This document shows positions 12,047 to 23,663 of a DNA stretch of 64,000 nucleotides, piece by piece. Made by a program: the position numbers and the translations under genes. This DNA is from Lachnospiraceae bacterium (GTDB lineage Bacteria; Bacillota; Clostridia; Lachnospirales; Lachnospiraceae). Every line of letters begins with the position of its first letter. The first letter of the stretch is position 1. The stretch spans positions 1-64,000 of the forward strand of contig JAJQFS010000086.1 in the NCBI GenBank assembly GCA_021200995.1, read 5' to 3'. A model generated the notes under the pieces. That model saw only the letters and a program-made list of their open reading frames with translations. It was not told the DNA's origin and ran no database searches.

Positions 12047-13257
12047 TGTATGAAGAGGTAACATATGACGTAATTCTTCAGAGGATGCTTGACCGCGTAT
12101 CCAGCAAGTTTGACAAACGGGAAGGATCCGTGATCTGGGATACTCATTCTCCAACGGCGATTGAATTACAGATTTTGTATCTGGAATTGGATAATATCCT
12201 CCTGGAAATGTTCGGTGATACGGCTTCCAGAGAATACCTGATCAAATTATGCGCTGAAAAGGGTATTATACCGGATGAAGCCACTTATGCGATATTGCAG
12301 GGAGAATTTACACCTTCCGGACTGGATTTGACCGGCCAGAGATTCAATATCGATGATCTCAATTTCGTGGTATTGGATTTGATTTCAGAAGATGGTACTA
12401 CCAGTTATTATCAGGTTCAATGTGAGACGGCAGGGATTGTTGGAAACCAGTATCTAGGAACTATGGTCCCTATAGATTATATAGATGGACTGGAAACGGC
12501 GGAACTAATAGCTGTTCTCATTCCGGGCGAAGATGAGCAGGATACGGAAGATCTCAGGGAAGAGTACCTCTCCTCATTTAACAATGTAGCATTTGCAGGA
12601 AATGTTGCTGCATATAAAAGCATCGTCAATGATATTGCAGGTGTCGGCGGTGTAAAAGTCAAGCGCGTATGGAATAGTGATATATCACCAACTGATATGA
12701 TTCCTTCAGATGCAGTACAAGAATGGTATGCATCTGTGATAGACACTCTTGACGAAGAGCCGGCTGCATGGTTGGAGGCAGTGTATACCGCAGCCTTGGA
12801 GAAAAAACTGGTAACCGGCGGTACGGTTTTGGTTACGATCATAAACAGCACATATGGTGCCGCAAGCGATACTCTGGTGGAAACGGTACAGGAAGAACTG
12901 GATCCAACGGACAGCGCTGGGGAGGGCTATGGGCTGGCTCCGATTGGGCATGTAGTAACTGTTCAGAGTGTGGAGGAGGTTGAACTTAATATCACAGTGA
13001 CAATTTCGTATGAAAGCGGTTATAGCTGGAGTAACCTCTCAAATGCCATTACTGATGCGGTTAAGGATTATCTGGAAGAGCTATGTGAAGATTGGGCTGT
13101 TTCTGACAGCCTGACGGTACGTATATCACAGATTGAAGCAAGAATATTAGCAGTTACAGGTGTTGTAGATGTGGCGGATACGGCTATTAACGGCGATGAA
13201 AATAACCTGACGCTGGATGAATATGAAATACCTGTTCTTGGAGGAATCAATTCATGA
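12046..13257 (+). CDS. Baseplate J wedge protein (XkdT-like)
   Basis: A 403-residue baseplate J/gp47-type protein. N-terminus has YDVILQRMLDRVSSKFDKR and EGSVIWDTHSPTAIELQ; the middle has EDTEDLREEYLSSFNNVAFAGN-type and AAYKSIVNDIAGVGGVKVKR segments; the C-terminus is the usual VSQIEARILAVTGVVD-like region (here SQIEARILAVTGVVDV). It forms the baseplate wedge with the DUF2634 and DUF2313 partners on either side. Confidence 0.9.
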   Translation: MYEEVTYDVILQRMLDRVSSKFDKREGSVIWDTHSPTAIELQILYLELDNILLEMFGDTASREYLIKLCAEKGIIPDEATYAILQGEFTPSGLDLTGQRFNIDDLNFVVLDLISEDGTTSYYQVQCETAGIVGNQYLGTMVPIDYIDGLETAELIAVLIPGEDEQDTEDLREEYLSSFNNVAFAGNVAAYKSIVNDIAGVGGVKVKRVWNSDISPTDMIPSDAVQEWYASVIDTLDEEPAAWLEAVYTAALEKKLVTGGTVLVTIINSTYGAASDTLVETVQEELDPTDSAGEGYGLAPIGHVVTVQSVEEVELNITVTISYESGYSWSNLSNAITDAVKDYLEELCEDWAVSDSLTVRISQIEARILAVTGVVDVADTAINGDENNLTLDEYEIPVLGGINS

Positions 13258-14597: not shown

Positions 14598-16343
14598 ATG
14601 ATTTTTCTGGGCTCGAACAGGCTTAAAAATTTTTATATTGGTTCATCGAAAGTAAAGAAGATGTATCTGGGATCCGAGTTGGTATATTCGGCGGGCGGTG
14701 TTGTGACATACTATGTGGATGTCGGCATTACATATACGGAAGAAGTGGAGAGTGACGCAACCTGCCTGTCTCCAACGACTTTCACGCCGACGAAGAGTGG
14801 ATACATCTTTGCTGGATGGAGAGAGGACGCAACAGCATCTTCTGATATTTTGACTGAAAAGACAATGGGAGATGATAGCGTCTCCCTGTACGCCGTCTTT
14901 AAGAAGACGATTTCGCTGACTTATTATAACGGCAGTTCAAGTGCTTCAACTAAGACAGGCACGCAGTACTATAATAATGAAAATATCGTAAACCCGACAT
15001 TTACACTAACCCCGGCCACTGTGTCGGGATTTACTTTTTCCGGGTGGTGTACGTCCTCGTCGGCAACCGCAAGCGTTGCGTATACCGGCATCAGTGATAC
15101 TGAGTTTGCTTCAGACACGACTTTATATGCAAAGTATTATCAGACAATTACACTGACATACTACAGTACAAGCTCTACGGCGGCTACGGAAACCGGCACA
15201 AGATACTATAATAGTGGAAATTATACGAATCCGACATTCACGATCAGTTCACCGTCGTTATCAGGCTGGAGCTTCCTGGGCTGGATTTCCGGGTCTACGA
15301 GTGCGACGGGTACTGTGTCTTATACGAGTATAAGCAGTACAGCGTTTTCAGCAAATGCAACCTTGTATGCGAAGTTCTCGAAGACTATTACGCTGACTTA
15401 TTACAACAACAGCACCACGGCATCTACGCAAACCGGTACACGGTATTTTAATGCTTATGGAAATTACTCTAACCCGACGTTTACCCTGACCGCAGCATCC
15501 AAGAGCGGCTGGTCTTTCGATGGCTGGTGTACGGGTACTGCGGGCAACGCCTCTATTGCCTATAGCAGTATCAGCAGCACGACATTCACGGCAAGTGCGA
15601 CATTATATGCAAGGTATAGCTGCACGATCACGCTGTCTTACAACGGCAACAGTGCTACCAGCGGATCCACGAGCAGCCAGACCGACACAAGATATTATAA
15701 CTCTGCAGGCAACTATAGCAACCCGACATTTACTCTGGCAAGCAATGGGTTTACCAGAAGCTGTTATTCGTTTTCCAAGTGGGCGAGTGGATCCGCATCC
15801 GGAACTCAGTATGCGGTTGGCGCAAGCGTTACGCTGTCTGCAAACACAACATTTTACGCGATCTGGACCGCCAATGTGTGCAGGCTGGTCATAAACGCTG
15901 TATTAAGTACCTCAACATCTCACTCGTATACGTTTGATACAGGTACGTTTAGTTTGCCTCAAATAACATTGACATGCACTCTTTACACGACGGCGACTGG
16001 ATCGACAGTACACAAAACATCAACCCTTACCAACTACCCGAAAGATGGCTCTCTGTCATTCTGTGGGCTTCTTACTGCCGTGTCATACGTATTGCAGGCG
16101 TGGAATTATGTAAGTGAACAATACACAGATCCGTATAACCTGATAAAAGTAACGGCGAATAAAGCCTTGTACTCGAATACAGGGCTGAGTTCTACGGGGC
16201 TTGCGTCTGGCAGCGTTATAACATTCTGCGCAGATGAAATTGCGACGATGTATTTAGGCGGCACAACCGCACAATATCAATTGGACGCAATCGGTTACTC
16301 AAAGACTCTCACATATTACGTCAGCGGCGCCAATGTGAGCTGA
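14598..16343 (+). CDS. Tail fibre with tandem Listeria-Bacteroides (InlB B-type) repeats
   Basis: A 581-residue fibre-like protein. The first ~35 residues hold short similar strands (KNFYIGSSKVKKMYLGS). From about residue 35 to 430 there are five to six tandem units of ~75 residues, each with a strand ITLTYY, a TGTRYYN turn, NPTFT, a GWSFxGWxxG core and an end such as TLYAKF. These are Listeria-Bacteroides repeats, beta-grasp modules used in surface adhesion. The last ~150 residues are a distinct cap. Codons are Thr/Ser/Tyr-rich, and no cysteine-rich cap is seen. Likely role: a host-binding tail fibre. Confidence 0.8.
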   Translation: MIFLGSNRLKNFYIGSSKVKKMYLGSELVYSAGGVVTYYVDVGITYTEEVESDATCLSPTTFTPTKSGYIFAGWREDATASSDILTEKTMGDDSVSLYAVFKKTISLTYYNGSSSASTKTGTQYYNNENIVNPTFTLTPATVSGFTFSGWCTSSSATASVAYTGISDTEFASDTTLYAKYYQTITLTYYSTSSTAATETGTRYYNSGNYTNPTFTISSPSLSGWSFLGWISGSTSATGTVSYTSISSTAFSANATLYAKFSKTITLTYYNNSTTASTQTGTRYFNAYGNYSNPTFTLTAASKSGWSFDGWCTGTAGNASIAYSSISSTTFTASATLYARYSCTITLSYNGNSATSGSTSSQTDTRYYNSAGNYSNPTFTLASNGFTRSCYSFSKWASGSASGTQYAVGASVTLSANTTFYAIWTANVCRLVINAVLSTSTSHSYTFDTGTFSLPQITLTCTLYTTATGSTVHKTSTLTNYPKDGSLSFCGLLTAVSYVLQAWNYVSEQYTDPYNLIKVTANKALYSNTGLSSTGLASGSVITFCADEIATMYLGGTTAQYQLDAIGYSKTLTYYVSGANVS

Positions 16344-16355
16344 TAAGGAGGCACC

Positions 16356-16898
16356 ATGAGATATATAACTGTAAAACCGCTTGTGCCGGGTGCGGGGAAT
16401 ACCCCAATCCCACTCGGACACAGGTTGGAGAACGAGGCCACGCAAATTACATTTGACGTGGCCAAATTTATTGATGATTTCGGAGACGGCGGGACGTTTG
16501 TTCTGCTACATCAGCGACCGGGGGACTGTAATCCGTACCCCGTCGCCGCGACACTGGATGGCACAGGGCTTACATGGCTGGTGACATCCGCCGACCTTGC
16601 AAAAGCGGGGCGCGGGGAGTGTGAGCTGCAGTATCTGACCGGCGATGTGGTAGTAAAATCCTGCACATGGCCGACACGGATTATGACGGCGATGAAGGAT
16701 CCTGGCGAGGCACCACCTGCAGAGACGGGCTGGGTTAAGCAGATGCTCTCAAGCATCCAGGAGCTGATCGCAACGGGATTGTACTGCGGGTTTGAAATAG
16801 ATCCCGAGACCGGTATCCTGACCATGATTACGGCGGAAGGGTACAGCGGATTGACGTTTGAAATCAATGATAATGGATATTTGGAAGTGGTGATTTAA
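16356..16898 (+). CDS. Phage baseplate upper/receptor-binding accessory protein
   Basis: A 180-residue protein behind AAGGAGGCACC. N-terminal 110 residues look like a beta-sandwich of the BppU-N type (IPLGHRLENEATQITFDVAKF; FVLLHQRPGD; ECELQYLTGDVVVKSCTWP), followed by a short helix and a hydrophobic C-terminal strand set ending GYLEVVI. It overlaps the next gene by one base. A role in fibre attachment is inferred from fold pattern and place. Confidence 0.6.
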   Translation: MRYITVKPLVPGAGNTPIPLGHRLENEATQITFDVAKFIDDFGDGGTFVLLHQRPGDCNPYPVAATLDGTGLTWLVTSADLAKAGRGECELQYLTGDVVVKSCTWPTRIMTAMKDPGEAPPAETGWVKQMLSSIQELIATGLYCGFEIDPETGILTMITAEGYSGLTFEINDNGYLEVVI

Positions 16899-17728
16899 TG
16901 GCAACGCGAACGACACTCGGCAAGGCGTCCATGACACCAAAAGGGACATATGATCCAGAAACCACTTATGTGCGGCTGGACATTGTGCAGTATAACGGGA
17001 GTAGCTATATTGTACTCCAGGACGTAACAGGGATTGAGCCCATAGATGACGGCGAGAACTACATGCTGCTGGCACAGGCAGGCGAGGAAACCGAAGAGTA
17101 CATCGCAAAGTATAATGCTGTGATGGCGGCCGTCGAAACAGCTGGGGAAAAGGCGGAAGCGGCAAGCGCGAGCGCATCAGAAGCAGCAGCAAGTGCTACG
17201 CAGGCAGCGGATTCGGCTACAGCGGCCGCCAAATCGGAGACCAACGCAAATTCATCTGAGACCGCAGCGCAGGCCGCGCAGGCGGCAGCAGAGACAGCAC
17301 AGCAGGCAGCAGAAACGGCGGCGTCCGAAGCGTCCACATCTGCGACGAATGCGGCAGGATCCCAGTCAACGGCGGCGGTCTCCGCCACCACAGCCCAGGA
17401 AGCGGCAAGTGCAGCCACAAGTGCAGAAACATCCGCAGAGAAGTCCGCAAGCGCCGCGCAGACAGCGCAGAAGGCCGCAGAGGAAGCGGCGGAAACGGCT
17501 GAGGAAAAAGCCGGTGAAGCATCGGAAAGTGCCACGGCTTCAAAAGCCAGTGAGACAGCAGCGGCAGCATCCGCAGAAGCAGCACAGGCAAGCGAGGAGG
17601 CTGCTGCGGAATCAGCCGAATCGGTAGAGGCGGTCCTGAAATCAGTCGGATACAACTACATCACCTTCTTTGTCGATGGGGACGACAACGGCCTGAACGC
17701 AACCGTATATCAGGAAGGAGACGATTAA
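16898..17728 (+). CDS. Ala-rich coiled-coil tail fibre shaft protein
   Basis: A 276-residue protein with three parts. Residues 1-65 form a small folded head (TYDPETTYVRLDIVQYNGSSY, a carbohydrate-binding-like tail module). Residues ~70-245 are almost pure Ala/Ser/Glu/Thr with heptad-like spacing, a long helical shaft likely to trimerise. The last 30 residues (ITFFVDGDDNGLNATVYQEGD) match the end of the next protein. The GC-rich repeats leave long spurious open frames on both strands here, which I do not count as genes. Confidence 0.75.
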   Translation: MATRTTLGKASMTPKGTYDPETTYVRLDIVQYNGSSYIVLQDVTGIEPIDDGENYMLLAQAGEETEEYIAKYNAVMAAVETAGEKAEAASASASEAAASATQAADSATAAAKSETNANSSETAAQAAQAAAETAQQAAETAASEASTSATNAAGSQSTAAVSATTAQEAASAATSAETSAEKSASAAQTAQKAAEEAAETAEEKAGEASESATASKASETAAAASAEAAQASEEAAAESAESVEAVLKSVGYNYITFFVDGDDNGLNATVYQEGDD

Positions 17729-17965: not shown

Positions 17966-19231
17966 ATGGCTTTAACTTCCATCGGGGATATCAATTTCCC
18001 CAGAGACACAACTATCCAGAGCCTGCTTGAAGCTCACCAGCAGACAAATGCTTACCTCGCGGCGATAGCAAACGAGAGCCTGCAGTCCACTCTCACGGAT
18101 TACGCAAGCATCCAGCGGATTGTCCGGTCGGGCTACGCATCAAAGATCTTCGCGATTGGCGACCAGATCAACGTCAACTGGACAGACACGGTGACCAACA
18201 CGACCTATGAGTGGCCGTTTGACGTGGTGCATTTTGACGACGTGGAGCTGGAGGATGGCGAGGTCGTGCCGGGCATGTTTTTACAGGCACATTACGCAAC
18301 AAGATACGCAATCATGTTCGACCAGTCAGAGGCGTTGTATTACTGTGATGAGGCCTTACCCGCCGGTACGTATTACTTCACGATCGGTACATCGTGGGGA
18401 AATAACTGCGTATCCGGCACATCGTATTACTTTACCACTACGGTAGACATCCCGGCGGGCGGCCAGATTAGAATCGGCGTCGCATCTGAAAACAATTCGT
18501 GGGCGGCACCGGATACTGCGGTATCAAACTGGCGCGTCTGGACATACTCCAGCCCGTCCAGTACATCGTCCCTGGAGGGCGCCGGTCTGGAACTGACAGA
18601 GGGCACAGAGGGTACAGACCTCGGCACCACGACAACGACCATCAAGTATGCGGACAGCGGAATCAACAATTTACAGCGTGCAGGATACGGCTATAACCGC
18701 TGGAGCCAGTCGGCTTACAGGCAGTATTTAAACAGCTCTGCGGCAATCGGGAACTGGTGGAGTCCACAGAATAACTTCGACCGCCCGCCGTCTCAGCTGG
18801 GTACTTATCCGGGCTTCATGTCTGGGTTTGAGGAAGATTTCCTGAATATCTTAAAACCGGTCAAGGTAACAACTGCCTTAAACACCGTATCAGATTCAGA
18901 AATCGGCACTCAGGAAGATACCTACGACACGTTCTTCCTGCCATCACTGGAGCAGTTGTTTATCACGCCACAGTTATCAGGAGTAGAAGGTGACGCATGG
19001 GACTACTGGAAGCGCGCAACAGGCTCCACCACGACCATTAAGACAAATGTGACCGGCGCATTCCCAATCACATACGCGCTGGAAAGCCACACCTCAGCGC
19101 AGTCCGTGCGGTTGCGCTCGGCGACTCGTGGCGGCGCGTCCCACGCCTGGTATGTCTACAGCTCGGGCGGCGTCTACAGCTACGGCGCGAGCAACGCGAA
19201 TCGTTCCGCCCCGGCTTGTGTCGTCTGTTAA
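17966..19231 (+). CDS. DGR target: tail receptor-binding protein with variable C-terminus
   Basis: A 421-residue protein, box AAAGGAGG before ATG 17966. N-terminal ~60 residues are helical (SLLEAHQQTNAYLAAIANESL), then a beta-rich domain to about residue 220, then a C-terminal part (~225-421) with the layout of DUF6273/C-type-lectin-like DGR targets (YGYNRWSQSAYRQYLNS, WDYWKRATGS, then the variable end with AWYVYSS and RSAPACVVC). Residues ~377-419 are encoded by the variable repeat. Thirteen codons there differ from the template: residues 380, 387, 390, 392, 393, 396, 398, 402, 404-407 and 417. Known role of the family: displays a hypervariable ligand-binding face at the tail tip. The receptor is not known. 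Confidence 0.9.
   Translation: MALTSIGDINFPRDTTIQSLLEAHQQTNAYLAAIANESLQSTLTDYASIQRIVRSGYASKIFAIGDQINVNWTDTVTNTTYEWPFDVVHFDDVELEDGEVVPGMFLQAHYATRYAIMFDQSEALYYCDEALPAGTYYFTIGTSWGNNCVSGTSYYFTTTVDIPAGGQIRIGVASENNSWAAPDTAVSNWRVWTYSSPSSTSSLEGAGLELTEGTEGTDLGTTTTTIKYADSGINNLQRAGYGYNRWSQSAYRQYLNSSAAIGNWWSPQNNFDRPPSQLGTYPGFMSGFEEDFLNILKPVKVTTALNTVSDSEIGTQEDTYDTFFLPSLEQLFITPQLSGVEGDAWDYWKRATGSTTTIKTNVTGAFPITYALESHTSAQSVRLRSATRGGASHAWYVYSSGGVYSYGASNANRSAPACVVC
19096..19221 (+). repeat. DGR variable repeat (VR)
   Basis: 126 bases aligned without gaps to the template repeat 659 bases downstream (19755-19880). There are 18 mismatches: 19103, 19104, 19125, 19133, 19134, 19139, 19140, 19142, 19151, 19157, 19169, 19170, 19175, 19179, 19181, 19184, 19185 and 19215. 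Every one faces an adenine in TR (18 of 33 TR adenines changed, 0 of 93 other bases). Replacements are 7 G, 6 T and 5 C. Homology stops sharply at TGTGT (19217-19221), 8 bases before the stop codon. Confidence 0.97.
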
Positions 19232-19249
19232 TCCAACAATCTATATATA

Positions 19250-19277
19250 ATCTCCGCCACCCACGGATGGCGGAGAT
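19250..19277 (+). promoter_or_regulatory. Hairpin downstream of VR (DGR target-recognition type)
   Basis: A perfect 10-bp stem (19250-19259 with 19268-19277) with an 8-nt loop lies 19 bases after the target stop codon. No T tract follows, so it is not a standard terminator. Hairpins or cruciforms just after VR are known to be needed for efficient retrohoming in the Bordetella phage DGR; the same role is inferred here. It could also act on avd translation, since the avd ribosome site begins 6 bases later. Confidence 0.7.
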
Positions 19278-19294
19278 GGATGAAAGGAGAACAG

Positions 19295-19732
19295 ATGTCA
19301 GTACCGGAAAATGAACGCGGCGACAGAAAAATGCAGGTATTTGTAAAAGCAAACGATCTTGTGAATTATACGATCAGGATCTGCTGCAATAAAAAGGTAT
19401 TCCTGCCAGAATACCAGAACGCCCTGACAAATGACATTATCCGGACCGCGAAAGATATCTTCATTTTCGCGTGGGAGGCAAACGAAATCAGGGTAACGGA
19501 TAATCAGGGAAAAGTAAGCCAGACAAAATATGTCGAAAGGAGGCGACTACAGGAAATTTCCATTCGCAGATGTAATGATCTCCTGGCGCTTATGCAGATG
19601 GCAAAAAGACTGTTCCACCTTAAAGCAAGAAGGATTAAGTATTGGGGCAGGCGGACCACAGAGGCCAGGGAACTGCTTGTTAAGTGGAGAGATGCAGATA
19701 CAAGGCGGTATGGTCATTTAGACCTGCCGTGA
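19295..19732 (+). CDS. avd: DGR accessory variability determinant (Avd)
   Basis: A 145-residue basic, helical protein between the target gene and TR. Start at ATG 19295 has AAAGGAGA 4 bases upstream; an ATG at 19280 lies inside the leader and has no box. It has the four-helix pattern of the bAvd family, with VKANDLVNYTIRICCNKK at the start, then NDIIRTAKDIFIFAWEAN, RRRLQEISIRRCNDLLAL and a basic C-terminal helix containing RELLVKWRDADTRR. Known role: forms a pentamer that binds the reverse transcriptase and template RNA and is needed for cDNA synthesis. It ends 22 bases before TR. Confidence 0.88.
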   Translation: MSVPENERGDRKMQVFVKANDLVNYTIRICCNKKVFLPEYQNALTNDIIRTAKDIFIFAWEANEIRVTDNQGKVSQTKYVERRRLQEISIRRCNDLLALMQMAKRLFHLKARRIKYWGRRTTEARELLVKWRDADTRRYGHLDLP

Positions 19733-19754
19733 GTATAAAGGGAGGTAGGCTGTA

Positions 19755-19880
19755 AGCGCAGAACGTGCGGTTGCGCTCGGCGAATCGTGGCAACGCGAAC
19801 AACGCCTGGAATGTCAACAGCTCGGGCAACGTCAACAACAACAACGCGAGCAACGCGAATCGTTCCGCCCCGGATTGTGT
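19755..19880 (+). repeat. DGR template repeat (TR)
   Basis: 126 bases, same orientation as the reverse transcriptase. It is non-coding in context but keeps the codon phase of the target: thirteen AAC/AAT/GAT codons match the diversified codons of VR, which is how adenine mutagenesis gives wide amino-acid choice without stop codons. Near the 3' end two AAC/AAT codons (19850-19858 region) are unchanged in VR. The flanks 19733-19754 and 19881-20045 hold no gene and are probably part of the structured template RNA. Confidence 0.97.
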
Positions 19881-20045
19881 GAACAAGGGCACATAAAGCT
19901 GTCCCGTAAGGATGGTGTGCCTGAATATTATGACACAAGGAGCCGAATTCCCGGCCTGAAAAGGCGAACAATACCGCCGCGATACAAGCATCTGCCATAA
20001 GGTATATGGGCGTTAGACACGCGGTGGAAATTTTAATAATCCCAT

Positions 20046-21170
20046 ATGAATGATGATGAAATGCTGGAGTCAGTGATCGGGTTTGAGGCGCTGTATGAAT
20101 CCATGTGCCGGTGCAGGAAAAACGTGATCTGGAAGGATTCCGTTGCGCACTATTACCTCAACGGCATCGAAGAGACCCTGAAACTCGAAAAAGAATTAAA
20201 GGCCGGAACCTATAAGCCACGCCCACAGAAGAAAATCCAGATCACACACCCGAAGCCCCGCGAAGCGGTCAGCATCGCATTCCGCGACAGGGTATACCAG
20301 CGAAGCCTAAATGACAACGTGATTTACCCTGCCATGACAAAACAGTTTATCAGGGACAACGCGGCCTGCCAGAAGGGCAAGGGGACAGACTTCGCGCGGG
20401 CAACCATAGACCGGTTTTTACATGAGGTTTACCGCAAGTACGGGCTGGATGCATGGGTCTTGCAGGGAGACATTAAGGGATACTACCCGAACATGTCCCA
20501 CAGGGTTGCAGAGGACTGCTTTAAGAAAAGCCTGCCGCCTGCAATCTATGAACGGGTGGAGATGATACTGCACAACCAGTACAAGGGAGAAAACGAATAT
20601 AACCCCGGCAGTCAGATGATACAGATTGCAGGAATATCGGTTTTAAGCGGCTTCGACCATTTCATCAAGGAAAAACTTCGTATCAGATGGTATCTCCGGT
20701 ACATGGACGATTTCATCTTAATCCACCATGACCGCGAATATCTGGAGCACTGCCTCGAAGAAATCAAAAAATATCTTGCGTCCATTGAATTCGAGGCGCA
20801 CCCGGAAAAGACAAGGATTTACCCAATGGCAGACGGAATCAAAATGCTGGGCTTTACCCACAAGCTGACGGAGACAGGGAAGGTAATACGCCTGATTAAT
20901 TCCGAGAATGTCAGGGCAGAGAGAAAGAAACTGTACAGGCTTGTCCAGAAGGCAAAGCGCGGGGAAATCACCAAAAGGAAAGTAAATGACTGCTTTGAGG
21001 CATGGAAAGCACACGCAAGATGCGGAAACTGCCAGCATGTCATTGAACGCATGGAACAGTATTACAAGTCGCTGTGGCGGCAGGAAGGAGCAGAGAATGA
21101 ACATCTTTACGAAACTCAGGGTATCCGTTCAGGAACAGAGGAAAATGGAGGATACACAGGCCACGCTTGA
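20046..21170 (+). CDS. DGR reverse transcriptase
   Basis: A 374-residue group-II-intron-like reverse transcriptase that copies TR RNA with adenine-specific errors. Visible motifs: GDIKGYYPNM (catalytic Asp 142), the motif-4 region GSQMIQ (188-193), and the active-site RYMDDF with YMDD at 219-222, then KMLGFTHKLTETGKV. It lacks the maturase and endonuclease domains of intron enzymes, and its size matches DGR enzymes. DGR enzymes normally show SQ in motif 4; here Ile replaces the Ser. No clear ribosome binding site precedes ATG 20046, which can pair into a short hairpin (20004-20010 with 20041-20047). The 3' end overlaps the next gene. Confidence 0.93.
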   Translation: MNDDEMLESVIGFEALYESMCRCRKNVIWKDSVAHYYLNGIEETLKLEKELKAGTYKPRPQKKIQITHPKPREAVSIAFRDRVYQRSLNDNVIYPAMTKQFIRDNAACQKGKGTDFARATIDRFLHEVYRKYGLDAWVLQGDIKGYYPNMSHRVAEDCFKKSLPPAIYERVEMILHNQYKGENEYNPGSQMIQIAGISVLSGFDHFIKEKLRIRWYLRYMDDFILIHHDREYLEHCLEEIKKYLASIEFEAHPEKTRIYPMADGIKMLGFTHKLTETGKVIRLINSENVRAERKKLYRLVQKAKRGEITKRKVNDCFEAWKAHARCGNCQHVIERMEQYYKSLWRQEGAENEHLYETQGIRSGTEENGGYTGHA

Positions 21171-23641: not shown

Positions 23642-23663
23642 ATCTCGGACAAATCTCGGACAA
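23642..23663. repeat. 11-bp tandem direct repeat near prophage right end
   Basis: ATCTCGGACAA is present twice without a gap (23642-23652 and 23653-23663), 9 bases after the endolysin terminator. It sits where an attachment site is expected, and could be an integrase binding site or part of attR. The left end of the prophage is outside the window, so the core cannot be confirmed. Confidence 0.45.

Follow-up and report, generated by a model that had tools for sequence, protein, structure and literature searches.

An intact diversity-generating retroelement in a probable Lachnospiraceae prophage belongs to a clade whose reverse transcriptases carry an altered motif 4

The window analysed here, a stretch of 64,000 nucleotides from a Lachnospiraceae bacterium, covers the opening 64 kb of a contig of 146 kb (JAJQFS010000086.1, assembly GCA_021200995.1) and carries a diversity-generating retroelement (DGR) within a contractile-tail phage region. 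The parts of the element are all intact and lie on the + strand in the order target gene, hairpin, avd, template repeat (TR), structured spacer RNA and reverse transcriptase (RT). The target gene (17966..19231) encodes a 421-amino-acid protein with a DUF6273, C-type-lectin-like C-terminal half (Pfam, E 1.7e-11), a putative tail adhesin, and its stop codon lies three codons beyond the end of the variable repeat (VR, 19096..19221, + strand). The avd accessory gene (19295..19732) encodes 145 amino acids; its open reading frame (ORF) opens at 19280, with a Shine-Dalgarno-preceded ATG at 19295, and it occupies the same place in nearly all relatives. It is followed by the TR (19755..19880), which is rich in adenines and in AAC and AAT codons, including an (AAC)4 run, by the 165-base interval encoding the spacer RNA (19881..20045) and by the gene for the 374-amino-acid RT (20046..21170). 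The genome contains a single RT of the DGR kind and a single TR/VR family, with no further VR. An initial annotation of the window, made from its letters, had described a complete DGR in a prophage, with target, VR, hairpin, avd, TR and RT in order on one strand; profile matches to the families concerned agree with this order, and the surrounding phage genes with this setting.

The alignment of VR with TR reproduces exactly the coordinates and counts given in that annotation. It spans 126 columns with zero gaps and contains 18 mismatches, each at a TR adenine (18/33) and none at the other 93 bases (0/93). The changes are from A to G in seven cases, to T in six and to C in five, and the probability that 18 random mismatches would all land on the 33 adenines of 126 positions is P = 3.7e-13. 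Thirteen codons differ, counting the one that includes position 19215, and no stop arises, as had been noted; an A-to-N change in any TR codon never creates one. An adenine one codon upstream of the VR start also differs (TAA in TR, TCA in VR), but probably lies outside the transferred tract, because the TR has an in-frame stop there.

The 3' end of the VR (19202..19221, + strand) resembles an initiation of mutagenic homing (IMH) site, in which the GC-rich CGTTCCGCCCCGG (19202-19214) is followed by a fixed difference at 19215, where VR has a C and the matching TR base, 19874, is the A of GGATTG. This TR adenine is altered in 55 of 55 relatives, to C in 47 and to T in eight, never to G and never left as A, whereas about half of the other TR adenines are unchanged. 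The simplest reading of these alignments is that cDNA transfer would end upstream of 19215, within the GC-rich CGTTCCGCCCCGG. In BPP-1, the transfer boundary has been placed at (GC)14 and IMH (PMC3240598). Alternatively, the change at 19215 could stem from the usual adenine mutagenesis, with selection then favouring Ala or Val, rather than representing a fixed IMH/IMH* difference outside the tract; the TR base is indeed an adenine and the encoded residue (Ala or Val) is conserved. We consider this unlikely, given that the site is changed in every relative and never to G, and that its C-or-T state is identical within each near-identical phage pair and tracks lineage, while neighbouring adenine sites differ freely. 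Moreover, three relatives (L038, L052 and L079) carry further TR/VR differences 3' of the fixed site, including one at a base other than A. Thus, the attribution of all 18 differences to mutagenesis in the initial annotation stands for 17 of them and probably fails for 19215. Without this site, mutagenesis accounts for 17 differences (of 32 adenines) in 12 codons, corresponding to target residues 380, 387, 390, 392, 393, 396, 398, 402 and 404-407.

The post-VR hairpin or cruciform (19250..19277, + strand) consists of a 10-bp stem plus CC/GG and a CAC loop. Of 73 relatives, 59 have a perfect stem of at least 7 bp, where shuffled sequences would lead one to expect 2.3; the stem sequence is variable among them and the CAC / CCCACGGA loop type recurs. 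In one subgroup (L080, L082 and L089-L096), VR and avd are about 400 bases further apart, and the fixed 3' site is T instead of C.

The RT matches RVT_1 and its RYMDD motif is intact. Its predicted fold is closest to the DGR RT of BPP-1 (8ub7; Z 33.1, 2.1 Å over 320 residues), which is also its best sequence match. The hallmark of DGR RTs, (I/V/L)GxxxSQ in motif 4, is found in about 90% of them, is diagnostic but not strictly definitional, has been called largely necessary and sufficient, and has been proposed as the source of adenine-specific errors (PMC3521204). Here, motif 4 reads P187-G-S-Q-M-I192-Q193, so that PGSQMIQ stands in place of the hallmark, and in the alignment to 8ub7 P187 falls opposite I181 of BPP-1. 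A survey of 84 RTs of the clade showed P at the I181 position in 82 and A in two, with I, V or L in place of the S of SQ; the final Q is kept, as is the R74-equivalent arginine in all clade RTs that cover that position. R74 and I181 of BPP-1 bRT are said to promote adenine mutagenesis, a finding attributed to Handa et al. 2021. We considered whether P187 could reflect an alignment shift and rejected this, as VG-IPI-G, RG-IGL-G and VG-YNP-G align ungapped via L027, L028 and L113. Intermediate RTs read GLGSQVSQ and GLGSQVTQ, again in an ungapped alignment. In a tree built by a quick method without the motif-4 columns, a branch with support 100 separates off the P/A RTs, which group within the I/L/V RTs, and the RT of the window falls within the DGR RTs. 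Another genome of the same bacterial family (G246) combines a P-type DGR RT with an L-type one (GLGSQVSQ); these two are L112 and L113.

No NCBIfam model scored above its cut-off for RT, Avd or target, and a partial literature search found no published description of the P variant. P-type RTs are probably already among those surveyed by Roux et al. 2021 (PMC8144416), because the classification there was based on a tree rather than on a motif. We assign the element as a variant DGR because it behaves as the functional definition of a DGR describes and because published DGRs without the full motif have been accepted as such.

The closest annotated phage record is MT835491.1 ('Bacteriophage sp.', L026, from human faeces), whose RT is 54% identical and which was the sole blastn match among phage records, over part of the cassette. 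The initial annotation had advised a database search for relatives. A scan of IMG/VR with one RT protein gave two distant loci only, and a profile of three RTs was required to recover 80 loci, with RT identities of 47-63%; the same type of RT is carried by two further genomes of that bacterial family, which has at least 334 genera among those sampled, in keeping with Lachnospiraceae. The relatives keep the gene order, a target of about 400 amino acids and Avd, and a diagonal search detected TR/VR pairs in nearly all loci holding both regions. An exact TR-pattern scan of IMG/VR gave zero matches, hence no second copy of this DGR and no same-strain comparison.

In 70 non-redundant TR/VR pairs of the clade, 1185 of 2417 adenines (49%) are changed against 16 of 6081 other bases (0.26%), a pooled ratio biased towards adenines by a pair finder that prefers A-type differences; comparisons between phage pairs are independent of that finder. 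Between the phages L098 and L100, the VRs differ at 15 positions, while the 2,783 bases compared elsewhere in target, avd, TR and RT are identical. Other near-identical pairs give VR against other differences of 4/0 (L049/L050), 19/1 (L080/L082), 25/3 (L048/L054) and 18/1 (L061/L062). Such VR-only variation is direct evidence of recent DGR activity in the clade, and together with the TR/VR pattern and the related pairs it upholds the earlier claim of past adenine-specific mutagenic retrohoming. The further claim of recent activity is thus borne out in the relatives; for the prophage of the window, a single snapshot, activity of its own copy is what we infer from them. In eight pairs associated with I/L-type RTs, 48% of adenines are changed and 0 of 676 other bases; judged from these sequences, the adenine specificity of the P clade does not appear visibly worse.

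Among the outcomes of AAC codons in the clade, Tyr (29%) is followed by Ser (17%), Gly (12%) and Thr (11%). With BPP-1 bRT in E. coli, Tyr and Ser are likewise the top changed residues (PMC12875486). TR adenines that precede G are almost never altered in the clade (CAGC 0/38, CAGA 3/52); they sit in conserved Gln/Ser codons, where a context effect and selection are inseparable.

In ten TR/VR pairs the two repeats are of unequal length, by one or two codons; the VR is longer in nine and shorter in one, and all of these changes fall within the AAC codon run of the TR. The VR of the window retains four AAC-run codons. In L061/L062 and in L032/L034 the TRs are identical and VR length alone differs; therefore, the length change arose in the VR, and contraction of the TR was rejected as its source in these pairs. 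Length change at (AAC)n is not a novel idea, as slippage in multiples of three at AAC repeats is an earlier proposal cited in PMC12875486. The changes seen in the clade are as expected of slippage and lend sequence-level support to it, and the near-identical phage pairs indicate that homing alters loop length besides loop sequence.

Since motif 4 is off at two positions, the TR/VR differences could be the trace of old mutagenesis in a decayed DGR, its RT now being inactive or faithful, and earlier authors did suspect that motif variants are inactivated copies (PMC4244168, PMC3521204). We regard this as very improbable: the motif is common to an entire clade in which ORFs are intact and otherwise identical phages vary only in VR, and there is zero non-A drift between the VR and TR of the window. 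For an ordinary repeat pair, shaped by drift or gene conversion and biased towards adenines by chance, the sole argument is that a 126-bp repeat exists; this reading can be dismissed in view of the P value given above, the same pattern in 70 relatives and the presence of RT, Avd, hairpin and RNA.

The product of avd matches PHROG 3206 ('Avd protein of DGR') with E 4e-9. Downstream of the TR, the spacer RNA (+ strand) has a conserved ACACAAGGAGCCGAAT...AAACAATAC core and occupies what we take to be the position of the BPP-1 Sp region. Zero Rfam families cover it. Across 27 relatives, two-sided changes occur in 23 of 24 base pairs; such cells number 199, compared with 68 ± 7 after shuffling, a control that leaves relatedness in. 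The covariation score is 0.736 against about 0.1 in slid controls, over which the structure is favoured by having been drawn from the same alignment.

The AlphaFold2 model of the target (pLDDT 90) matches the N-terminal region of the T. ramosa IgA peptidase (IgAse) with Z 20 over 215 residues; Foldseek alone returned a single strong match. The C-type lectin domains of Lcl, LOX-1, CD23, CD94 and LLT1 match it weakly, tied at a moderate Z of 5-8. Mtd and other known DGR variable proteins are absent from its lists of structure matches, which is no evidence against a C-type lectin fold, and a sequence search of the PDB gave zero relatives for the target and for Avd. The model would place the variable residues on strands and turns between residues 380 and 407. 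Many DUF6273 proteins occur in phage structure sets. The fold, the position behind a tail fibre and precedent point to a putative host-binding role for the target.

The phage part of the window (1-23,600) encodes a scaffold, major head protein, sheath, tape measure, baseplate wedge, tail fibre and endolysin, and beyond it lie host genes for a Mn catalase, a glycogen branching enzyme, an [FeFe] hydrogenase and GluRS. At the right edge of the prophage, a 19-bp word, TCGGACAAATCTCGGACAA (window 23645-23663), is a candidate attachment (att) core. It is exactly identical to positions 12694-12712 of another contig (C51; L125), where it lies about 35 bases from an integrase gene that has other genes on its far side, and its orientation fits a candidate attR/attL pair. 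The remainder of the prophage is probably on C51, perhaps plus one missing contig. A tail-fibre-like protein (16898..17728, + strand; PHROG 5073 tail fiber protein, E 9e-9) is encoded upstream of the target, and between 16898 and 17957 two consecutive ORFs share a duplicated 61-nt 3' segment (70% identical, NGLNATVYQE-D), which resembles a short repeated C-terminal tag. The tail module also contains a 581-amino-acid protein (14598-16343) with five Listeria-Bacteroides (Flg_new/InlB-type) repeats and no PHROG match, and an Rfam GP20-b RNA (RF03003) lies directly before the scaffold gene (1071-1141).

Taken together, these results make it very probable that the DGR of the window is intact and phage-borne and acts by mutagenic retrohoming to diversify a C-type-lectin-like protein, the putative tail adhesin. 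RNA across the TR and the structured spacer would be copied by the RT with Avd, and template adenines would be miscopied during cDNA synthesis. The cDNA would then replace the VR from the 5' limit of TR/VR homology to the GC-rich site at the 3' end, which precedes the hairpin. The outcome would be new host-binding surfaces on the putative adhesin, which may serve to alter host range. Several points weigh against this interpretation: the Avd assignment is a match of moderate strength only; the prophage is split between contigs and a terminase was not found with the one model tried, so that it may be incomplete or non-inducible; and the copy in the window is one snapshot.

The DGR itself is genuine, complete and ordinary in kind, and what is new is its membership of an active clade without the RT signature. 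This phage lineage, present in other members of the bacterial family, has lost motif 4 of its RT at both ends (I/V/L to P or A, S to I/V/L) and yet, by its sequence record, appears to mutate only adenines. As to what makes DGR RTs unfaithful at adenines only, these phages amount to a natural experiment, in which the motif-4 signature and the equivalent of I181 have been lost and specificity is kept. We lean towards the view that a clade of Firmicutes-phage RTs errs adenine-specifically without I181 and SQ, with the determinant lying elsewhere or rebuilt (P-G-S-Q-x-[IVL]-Q), and that motif-based DGR finders overlook such elements. Active DGRs may thus escape motif-based surveys.

With the BPP-1 DGR (bRT/Avd/TR, target Mtd), the element shares the target-avd-TR-RT order, adenine-specific differences, a GC-rich 3' VR end with a hairpin, an RNA region downstream of the TR, the RT fold and R74. 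It differs from BPP-1 in an RT about 19% identical on the fold match, in PGSQMIQ instead of IGSLTSQ, in a CAC-type rather than a GRNA hairpin loop and in its DUF6273 target. MT835491.1 and the IMG/VR loci L032-L111 are like it in RT (about 47-63% identical), order, motif-4 variant, target type and spacer RNA, but their TR/VR sequences differ and some have (AAC)n VR length changes. A DGR of epsilon crAss-like phages, with GxxxSP, likewise has an RT that departs from GxxxSQ and was missed by myDGR (PMC11054128); there the last residue changes from Q to P, whereas here the departures are at position one (I to P) and position six (S to I).

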